From Proales similis (lineage: Eukaryota > Rotifera > Eurotatoria > Ploima > Proalidae), in contig JAGVRJ010000012.1 in the NCBI GenBank assembly GCA_019059635.1, positions 1,426,001 to 1,490,000 of the forward strand: a DNA stretch of 64,000 nucleotides, in the 5' to 3' direction. How positions within the stretch are numbered: the first letter of the stretch is position 1; every line of letters begins with the position of its first letter. Shown in pieces: positions 31,046 through 33,601 of the stretch. The position numbers and the translations under genes are program-made. The notes beneath the pieces are model-generated. The model was not told the DNA's origin and made no database searches. It saw only the letters and a list, made by a program, of their open reading frames with translations.

Positions 31046-31133
31046 GCAAGAGACGTTACGCTTTATTGCGCTTTATTGCAAGAGACGTTACGCTTTATTG
31101 CGCTTTATTGCAAGAGACGTTACGCTTTATTGT
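31046..31133. repeat. Tandem repeat, 32-bp unit, about 2.7 copies
   Basis: Copies begin at 31046, 31078 and 31110. Each reads gcaagagacgttacgcttta followed by ttgcgctttatt. The first two copies are identical; the third follows the unit to about 31133 and then diverges. Inside the unit the motif cgctttattg occurs twice, so the array is nested. It lies about 360 bp upstream of the start codon of the transporter-pyruvyltransferase gene. Confidence 0.9.
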
Positions 31134-31495
31134 GTTTATGGCGCTTTATTTCGGGCCAATACGGACCCAGGTTCTGGCTTAAACTATGGGGATGCAAAAT
31201 ATAGACTCGAGCCTTATAATATTGCGAGTTTTAGTGAATAGAGAGAAACAGATGATACTCGTCTGTGGTGTTAAAATTTCATGAAATACGGTTGCAGACT
31301 CGTAGTCTTGGCCCTCAATAAAATCTGTTACACAGAAGCGATCTGCACAAATGATTTTACGAAAAACGATTTCGTGGCAAAAACACTTCAGAACGTGCCT
31401 TTCTAGATTTTATAAAGAAAGAGTAAGACCAAGAAGCAGTGACATTTTAGATTCAGAACTGAAAAACAAAACACGCGGAGAGGAATGAAACGAAC

Positions 31496-33601
31496 ATGAG
31501 CTCGAGCCTGCTCAATGTGCGACTGGTGTTCAACGTCGTTTGCTGGTACGCATTCACGGTGGTCAGCGCGCTCTATTCCAAACGCTTTTTCCAAATCACT
31601 CATGACCCTCATCTGCTCACGATCGTGACGTTCGCTTATGGGTTCGCAATTCGGCTTGGCCGCGGCGGGCTGGGCAAGTTGTTGCGCGAGCAGGCTCTCT
31701 TGCGTGTCTTTTGCCTGCTCGCCTTGTTCAACGTGGCCTCCACTCTGCTCACCAACATTTGCATGAACGAGACTTCGGTGGCGCTCACCTACATCGTCAA
31801 GGCGAGCGAGCCCGTATTTGTCATCGTCCTGTCCTACTTCATCCTGGAGCAGAGCTTCACGCTGCCCGTGCTGCTCTCGATCGTGCCTATCTGCGCTGGC
31901 GTTACTCTTACCATTGCCGGCGAGATCCACTTCTCTTCTCTCGGCCTGGTCGCTATTCTGAGCGCCAATCTGGCCACGGCTGCACGCAATGTCTTTTACA
32001 AAGCGGCCGGCGCAGAGACAAAGCTCTCTGCCAATAAGAACGAGCCAAGCAGCCACCTGAGTCCGTTCGGAGCCTACGTGACCATCTGCTTCTTGTCCAT
32101 GCTGTTCTACTTGCCCGGCTTTCTGCTCGGACAAGTGGTCAGACAGAGCTGGCCTCAGGAACAGCTCACAGCCGAGGCGGTCGTGTTTCTTCTCCTCGGC
32201 TCGCTCTGCAACTTCCTCTACAACTTGTTCTCTTTTCGTGTTCTTAATGACCTCGCGCCAATCTCGCACTCGGTGCTCAACATGATGAAGCGAGTGTTCA
32301 CCGTCTTCAGCTCTTTTCTCTACTTTGCCAATCCGGTTTCTAGCACCCAAGTGATCGGCATGTTGATGGCCGACTCGGGCGTCTTCTTGTACTCCTACCT
32401 GAAGGTCAGAGCGCCCAAGCAGTCGATCACCATCGGCGACTCGGTGAAGAAGCTCATCCGCACGACCATCATGGCTGTGATATTGTCCGTTCTGGTCTTC
32501 GCCTGGTTCCAGACAACGGCCCCTCTAGCCTGGACGAGAACCACCCGAGTCACAGAGCTCGTCAATCATGCCAAACGCTTAGAGTGCATATCGGCCGTCC
32601 AGGCCAAAATCATCGAAGCCTACTCAACAGTAATTCCACGCAACAAGTCATGCCATCTGCTTGACATTCCTCTTCATGACAACTATGGCGACACTCTTAT
32701 TTGGTGAGTTTTTCAGTGGCAGTTTTTATTTTTACTTCGCTGGTCACGTTTGGAATTCAGGGCTGGCGAAGAAATTCTGATCAAACAGTTCGCTTCAAAA
32801 GTTGTTTACCGGACGGACGCTTCTACAAGCAATATTGACATTAAAAAAAATGTGAAGCCCGACGGTCTCATTCTGCTGCATGGAGGAGGCAATTTCGGCG
32901 ATCTCTATTTGAGACATCAAATGTTTAGGATTATGGTCGTCGAGAACTTCAACACTTCCGACATCCTTCTCTTCCCACAGACCATCAACTACCAAAACAA
33001 GGCCCAGATTGAGACGGATCGCGCCGCTTTTGAGAAAAACCCTCATCTCTACCTATCGTTCCGGAGCGAAGAATCTTTTCAGTTCGCCGTCAAACACTTT
33101 CCCAACACCAAGGTGCTTCGAGTGCCCGACATGGCATTCATGATCGGCGACGTGCCTTACACACAGCTGGCGCGGGTCGACGTTTTCATTCTCAGACGCA
33201 CGGATAAAGAGTCCAATTTCCCCAAAGAACTATGGCAAAAAGCCTACAAGCATTTCGACGCTGCCAACATTACCTACGAAGAGGCCGACTGGTATGGGAT
33301 TCCGCACAGACAGGCCGCCAACCTCGAAGAGATGTACAGTATTCGACTAGAGCTGGTCACGAGCATTATGACCAGAGGCAAGCTGGTCATCACCGATCGC
33401 CTTCACGCCAGCATCTTTAGTGTGCTGATCGGCAAGCCGCACATCATCATAAACGAAAAGTACAACAAGATCGTAAACACGCGCTCGCTCGCCTTTGCCG
33501 ATATCGAGGCCTGCAGTCCACATCATCTGGGCGAGGCCTATGCACAAGATCCTTTCGAGGCTGTTATAATGGCCCTCGAATGGCTTTATTTGTTGCCTTA
33601 G
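31496..33601 (+). CDS. Fusion: TPT/SLC35E-like carrier plus polysaccharide pyruvyl transferase
   Basis: Two exons (31496-32703, 32761-33601; 57-bp GT-AG intron) give 682 residues. Residues 1-305 form a ten-helix triose-phosphate-translocator-type carrier. The phosphate-binding signatures of plastid translocators are visible: Lys102 in YIVKASEPVF and Lys265-Arg266 in PISHSVLNMMKRVF, followed by GVFLYSYLK. An eleventh helix (about 321-339) follows. Residues about 385-680 are a polysaccharide pyruvyl transferase domain (WcaK/ExoV/Pvg1 type): HDNYGDTLIWAGEE, LLHGGGNFGD (about 443-450), LLFPQTI, VLRVPDMAFMIGD, and ITDRLHASIFS with Arg616 and His618 of the RLH motif. An odd helix count places the transferase in the lumen. 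Inferred role: move phosphoenolpyruvate into the Golgi and transfer its pyruvate to sugars. The intron lies inside the transferase domain, so the fusion is within exon 1 and is not a joining artefact. Confidence 0.88.

Follow-up and report, generated by a model that had tools for sequence, protein, structure and literature searches.

The locus considered here raises the question of whether a single animal gene encodes both a membrane carrier and a pyruvyltransferase, and of what such a protein would do. It lies in a 64,000 bp stretch of DNA (the window; contig JAGVRJ010000012.1 of assembly GCA_019059635.1, positions 1,426,001 to 1,490,000) from Proales similis, a monogonont rotifer. On the plus strand of the window, a two-exon gene at 31496-33601, with splice sites read from genomic DNA, gives a product of 682 amino acids (aa), in which a carrier of the TPT type is followed by a pyruvyltransferase of the Pvg1 type. 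This copy is designated C12. The fused reading frame is confirmed. With a probability of about 0.65, we propose that the product is a single secretory-pathway protein that would import phosphoenolpyruvate (PEP) and pyruvylate a lumenal sugar.

A carrier and a pyruvyltransferase in one reading frame

The frame of exon 1 is free of stops from carrier helix 10 through an eleventh helix to NYGDTLIW, where the transferase motifs begin. Because this exon alone spans both domains in frame, the join is independent of the splice. The N-terminal half matches the Pfam TPT profile (PF03151) with 169.8 bits against a cut-off of 30 (E 1.2e-49; profile positions 3-291 of 291). Its best sequence match among solved structures is the Galdieria translocator 5y78 (E 1.3e-21), to which it is 27% identical in the structural alignment. 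Membership of PF03151 thus rests on a profile score over the cut-off along the whole domain, and on a ten-helix fold of the drug/metabolite transporter (DMT) type like that of the solved phosphate translocator. For the C-terminal half the best solved match by sequence is fission yeast Pvg1 (5ax7, E 8.9e-37), and membership of the Pvg1-type PF04230 family is given by the profile match, by this similarity and by the presence of equivalents of Asp106, Arg217 and Arg337. The first-pass annotation had placed the carrier, an extra helix and the start of the transferase in exon 1 and the remainder in exon 2; the frame, the domain matches and the predicted helices bear this out, and the four motifs that it named (VKASEP, NMMKRVF, HGGGNFGD and TDRLHA) are all found in the product. 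Its claim that both proteins are fused into one in an animal host likewise stands, on the in-frame join and both domain matches.

Profile searches covered the genome (32,716,893 bases in 15 contigs). They gave four loci for PF04230 and six matches for PF03151, and both domains occur together at three loci: the window copy, C7 and C13 (Table 1). The intron falls at an identical codon and phase in all three. The layout of exon 1 is repeated in C7, in C13 (with one more intron) and in the database proteins P0001, P0002 and P0136. Chance or a frame artefact is ruled out by the domain scores, the three loci and the in-frame join. A contaminant or bacterial insertion is ruled out by the GT-AG introns in the copies, together with two further open frames of the window, one with an Ets domain and one for a rhodopsin-type receptor, both of which agree with an animal.

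Table 1. Features of the fusion gene and location of its two paralogues. Positions are those of the window unless preceded by C7 or C13; residues are those of the 682-aa product.
Feature	Position	Strand	Description
Exon 1: carrier domain, cytosolic linker, helix 11, stem, first pyruvyltransferase motif	31496..32703	+	1208 nt, aa 1-403, last codon split; open frame
TPT/SLC35-type carrier domain, ten helices	31523..32395	+	aa 10-300
Lys102, aligned with phosphate-pocket Lys of Galdieria (Lys204; Arabidopsis Lys203)	31799..31801	+	alignment; kept in 5/5 fused carriers reaching the position
Lys265-Arg266, aligned with Galdieria Lys362-Arg363 (Arabidopsis Lys359-Arg360)	32288..32293	+	alignment; kept in 8/8 fused carriers
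Helix 11, predicted to cross the membrane	32438..32518	+	aa 315-341; AlphaFold helix, hydropathy, Lys/Arg flank
PS_pyruv_trans domain, across the intron	32681..33457	+	aa 396-635; PF04230 84.2 bits vs cut-off 25.3, E 2e-23
Asp399 = Pvg1 Asp106 (proposed catalytic)	32690..32692	+	alignment
Intron, GT-AG (GTGAGT...TTCAG), inside the Trp403 codon (TG/G)	32704..32760	+	57 bp; same place in C7 and C13
Exon 2: remaining pyruvyltransferase domain up to the stop codon	32761..33601	+	841 nt including stop
His455 = Pvg1 His168 (acceptor-specificity position)	32915..32917	+	alignment
Arg504 = Pvg1 Arg217 (proposed PEP contact)	33062..33064	+	alignment
Arg616 in TDRLHA = Pvg1 Arg337 (proposed PEP contact)	33398..33400	+	alignment
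C7 fusion copy	C7:2081131-2083250		86% identical to C12 copy; intron 59 bp
C13 fusion copy	C13:767487-769638		37% identical to C12 copy; intron 54 bp and one further intron, 64 bp

Two other observations concern the immediate surroundings of the gene. Short tandem direct repeats, with a unit of about 32 bases that approximates AAGAGACGTTACGCTTTATTGCGCTTTATTGC, were seen by eye at 31046-31135, some 0.4 kb before the start codon. On the minus strand, an open frame of 373 aa (31406-32524) runs antisense to the carrier exon; there is no evidence that it is a gene, and it is probably a by-product of G+C-rich third positions.

Carrier pocket, active site and membrane topology

Among solved DMT carriers, which are few and include no SLC35E among the matches, the phosphate translocator is closer to the carrier half than are nucleotide-sugar-type carriers, in both sequence and fold. 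A nucleotide-sugar carrier, a possibility raised at first pass, is thus less likely as a first choice. The pocket was compared in an alignment of 14 rows, 8 of them fused, on which the Arabidopsis pocket residues were placed by motif at what we take to be positions 185, 204, 263, 339, 362 and 363 of the Galdieria protein. In Arabidopsis TPT these residues are His184, Lys203, Phe262, Tyr338, Lys359 and Arg360, and the Phe is thought to block PEP, being replaced by Ser or Ala in PEP-moving homologues (PMC6981301). The Tyr339 equivalent is kept in all eight fused carriers, as is the Lys-Arg pair. P0003 was left out of the Lys204 count because it starts after that position, its letter there being an alignment artefact. 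At position 263 the fused carriers have T, T, C, T, T, S, S and M, with Phe absent from all eight; at 185, those reaching the position have T, T, I, N and I, and the nearby Thr188 is kept in four out of five. Among the six unfused rows, Phe occupies 263 in Galdieria and in the fungal P0010, and in the plant-type P0005 the two varying positions (185 and 263) are both Asn. The fused carriers therefore combine a kept phosphate pocket with the lack of a bulky Phe at the PEP-excluding position, which is necessary, not sufficient, for PEP carriage.

In Pvg1, Asp106, Arg217 and Arg337 are proposed to be catalytic and His168 is tied to acceptor choice (PMC4872226). These residues were mapped with a derived chain offset of 53, which fits all four. 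Their equivalents (Asp399, Arg504, Arg616 and His455) are invariant in the three P. similis paralogues, and a check for loss of catalytic residues, suggested at first pass, found those of Pvg1 kept. In the wider 22-row clade of the transferase tree described below, the equivalents of Arg217, Arg337 and His339 are kept in every row. That of Asp106 is kept in the four rows counted: 15 of the 22 do not reach the column, and P0018, P0028 and P0030 (L, L and N, in apparent intron sequence) were left out. The His168 position holds His in 14 rows, and G, S, Y, N or E in the others.

The eleventh helix claimed at first pass is predicted both by hydropathy and by AlphaFold, which gives ten carrier helices plus this one (mean predicted local distance difference test score, pLDDT, 81.1). 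It is hydrophobic in all eight fused rows, and Lys/Arg residues are commoner before than after it in seven of them. Both termini of SLC35-type carriers are cytosolic; one added helix would therefore end the chain in the lumen, and hydropathy and charge together suggest that the transferase domain is lumenal. The model of the P0003 fusion has a fold closest to Pvg1, with a well predicted transferase (most ten-residue blocks above 90). Its carrier blocks lie between 40 and 67, and because this part is poorly predicted the model is uninformative on the geometry between the two halves.

Copies in P. similis and relatives elsewhere

Comparison of C12 with C7 indicates purifying selection on both halves, the ratio of nonsynonymous to synonymous divergence (dN/dS) being 0.178 for the carrier and 0.214 for the transferase. 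Synonymous divergence itself is about four times lower in the carrier (0.148, stretch 31496-32413) than in the transferase (0.648), and 19 of 163 four-fold sites are changed before residue 307 compared to 42 of 126 after it (Fisher p 1e-5). Gene conversion confined to the carrier is the simplest reading of this difference; codon constraint may be another cause.

Some other loci of the genome carry related domains. Another TPT-family locus, presumably SLC35E2-like, is present at C12:1302592-1303496 as several fragments with what appear to be introns between them. A fusion of a different type occurs on the minus strand at C9:748556-751306, where an open frame of 917 aa joins a family 8 glycosyltransferase to a second, divergent PS_pyruv_trans domain; a reverse-transcriptase-like open frame was noticed by eye beside it. 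An open frame of 481 aa (C7:2078132-2079574) with a galactosyltransferase domain (PF01762, E 2.8e-40) lies upstream of the C7 fusion, at a distance of about 1.6 kb and in the same orientation. The genome holds 22 matches to PF01762, clusters included: C13 has none, and the single match on C12 is distant from the window copy. With the 14,641 predicted proteins of P. similis (PMC11954553), six neighbour slots and random placement, the chance expectation of such a neighbour, computed after it had been seen, is about 0.9%. As regards the acceptor this neighbour is a lead, not proof.

The same domain order was looked for in protein databases, as advised at first pass, and was found in P0001, P0002, P0003 and P0136. 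The fusion is thus present in this animal, as had been claimed, but is not peculiar to it. A search with the fused alignment scored 7994 candidates and reported 14 at E <= 1e-5, and a search with the carrier half scored 7996 and reported 8; because only these candidates were scored, the absence of bdelloid or other named fusions means little. P0001 and P0002 are carrier exons which end at, or a few residues past, NYGDTLIW or NYGDSLIW. The carrier search added P0135 and P0136, the latter also ending at NYGDTLIW. P0003 is a predicted protein of 647 aa with both domains on one contig; it is without the first part of the carrier and has no break at the intron site. In a carrier tree of 17 rows the fused carriers are grouped (100/99); with long branches for P0003 and C13 and few references, this tree was not used for dating the fusion.

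At E <= 1e-10 the transferase search matched 1292 proteins, 120 of them listed. The closest among these 120 is P0015 of Brachionus plicatilis (364 aa), 48% identical over 95% of the query. A tree of 72 rows was built from 65 of the listed proteins, P0003, Pvg1, the P. similis domains (three) and, from the search with the fused alignment, P0006 and P0007. It places the P. similis domains with P0015 and 18 others in a clade of 22 rows (100/100), and Pvg1 in a part of 41 rows (99/91) which holds all seven bacterial-named rows. Eleven of the 18 were read: five begin at the intron site of P. similis, or read apparent intron up to it, and six start further in. Judging from the clade, the 18 are probably rotifer sequences; the fused exon is present in several species, themselves probably rotifers. 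P0034 (483 aa, on a contig of 3711 bases), which pairs with P0029 beside the clade, is a pyruvyltransferase whose N-terminal part contains several hydrophobic stretches and, with LYAYLKSKS at their end, resembles a carrier terminus. As a carrier fusion it was rejected, profile comparison with the carrier giving no match (probability 0.4%, E 0.16, 9 columns).

Proposed mechanism, rival readings and known systems

Pyruvylation from PEP frees phosphate, which is the usual counter-substrate of TPT-type carriers, and a carrier fused to a pyruvyltransferase would therefore close a cycle. From the anatomy of the protein we infer the transported substrate, antiport, compartment, catalysis and acceptor as follows. 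The protein would be located in the secretory pathway, most likely the Golgi, and its ten-helix half would act as a phosphate-translocator-type antiporter moving PEP from cytosol to lumen. Helix 11 would carry the chain over the membrane, leaving the Pvg1-type domain in the lumen adjoining the carrier, where it would transfer pyruvyl from PEP to a sugar, a terminal galactose being the likeliest acceptor. The phosphate set free would exit by way of that carrier, exchanged for further PEP, and the protein would thus supply its own substrate and remove its by-product. An algal translocator is reported to be an obligatory antiporter (PMC6508934). A wider claim, to which we give about even odds, is that this is a bifunctional animal protein coupling import, transfer and by-product export. 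On the evidence of the reviews and searches covered, its gene would be the first assigned to glycan pyruvylation in animals, forming a small rotifer family, with at least one further fusion in a different lineage.

Several observations weigh against self-supply with PEP and bear on its rivals. The pocket Lys/Arg residues, regarded at first pass as phosphate residues, are present and aligned as expected but are general to the carrier family, the Galdieria translocator included, and alone do not point to PEP. A small residue at 263 is also found in three unfused algal-type carriers (P0008 S, P0009 A, P0137 A). Against TIGR00817, the model of plastid phosphate/PEP translocators, the carrier reaches 125.2 bits where the curated cut-off is 317.9, and is therefore not filed in the plastid Tpt subfamily; P0005, which we take to be a PEP translocator, scores 405.4 bits. 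The fused carrier could thus move another phosphorylated metabolite (triose phosphate or the substrate of an orphan SLC35E), its helices serving only as an anchor and PEP arriving by another carrier. This is unlikely, since the Lys, Tyr and Lys-Arg pocket is intact where covered, the excluding Phe is lacking throughout, the carrier is under purifying selection, and one helix suffices as an anchor, as Pvg1 and, it appears, P0021, P0025, P0029 and P0042 illustrate. The P0003 transferase groups with P0021, which has no carrier and a single N-terminal hydrophobic stretch, and not with the domains of P. similis (100/92). This concerns history: there may have been two fusion events or a loss, P0003 being either a second independent fusion or the sign of an older one with losses.

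Doubts as to the transferase arise from the many uncharacterised proteins in PF04230, from the varying His168 position and from the His of HGGGNFGD, absent from 8 of the 22 clade rows including C7; the galactosyltransferase neighbour, for its part, accompanies a single copy out of the three and was spotted post hoc. Another donor or acceptor, or an inactive enzyme, so that the product is not pyruvylated galactose, nevertheless seems improbable in view of the kept equivalents of Asp106, Arg217, Arg337 and His339, of the His168 equivalent kept in the three P. similis copies, and of Pvg1 being both the closest solved relative and the closest fold of the P0003 fusion. A reversed orientation, with the transferase in the cytosol, would draw on the inferred nature of the topology, on C13, with four Lys/Arg before helix 11 and five after, and on the modest contrast between inside and outside loops of C12 (7 Lys/Arg of 61 and 3 of 49, helix limits being set by hand). 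It is given little weight against the hydrophobicity of helix 11 in every fused row, the charge excess before it in nearly all, and the cytosolic ends of SLC35-type carriers, from which an extra helix leads to the lumen. That two adjoining genes or an assembly error were read as one is hardly credible. P0015, the only named rotifer protein among the matches listed, is annotated as exopolysaccharide biosynthesis, without a carrier or clear membrane helix, so that either its gene model is truncated or the enzyme really is separate; against this stand the stop-free join inside exon 1 and the order repeated at three loci and in proteins from other sources, with both domains of P0003 on one contig.

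If coupled import and pyruvylation hold, supply and use of PEP would be physically linked and phosphate release would close the antiport cycle, which is testable with one reconstituted protein. The fusion also hints that a TPT-type carrier serves a pyruvyltransferase, and this would help in assigning substrates to the orphan carriers of the SLC35E type. In animals, glycan-bound pyruvate has been described chemically in glycolipids of the sea hare and in polysaccharides of sponges, and the available parts of two reviews assign no animal gene to the modification (PMC6801904, PMC6994554), in keeping with the scarcity stated in the first-pass annotation. No fused carrier-pyruvyltransferase, transporter-glycosyltransferase fusion or rotifer pyruvyltransferase was found in the open-licence literature, nor, by title, any work on rotifer glycans. 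The rotifer fusion is a direct candidate gene for glycan pyruvylation in animals, in a small animal already sequenced by other groups.

The known systems compare as follows. Pvg1 is a membrane-anchored Golgi enzyme using PEP, with the same domain and the same proposed catalytic residues, and its PEP in the Golgi is reportedly supplied by Pet1p and Pet2p (PMC4872226, PMC6801904); the precedent cited at first pass, a separate PEP carrier supplying Pvg1, thus holds, except that two transporters are reported and not Pet1 alone. Where Pvg1 has an N-terminal anchor and separate transporters, the rotifer protein has a whole carrier plus one helix. Pet1p and Pet2p have the role proposed for the rotifer carrier half, but are separate proteins, set beside it by role and not by sequence. 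Plastid phosphate translocators (5y78, P0005) share the ten-helix DMT fold and the Lys, Tyr and Lys-Arg pocket, whereas the rotifer carrier is distant in sequence, far under the subfamily cut-off, fused to an enzyme and found in an animal. Animal SLC35-type carriers (SLC35B1 and others) belong to the same DMT superfamily. B. plicatilis P0015 falls in the same transferase clade but is annotated without the carrier. Both halves thus belong to known families; within the searches made, what is new is their combination and its occurrence in an animal.
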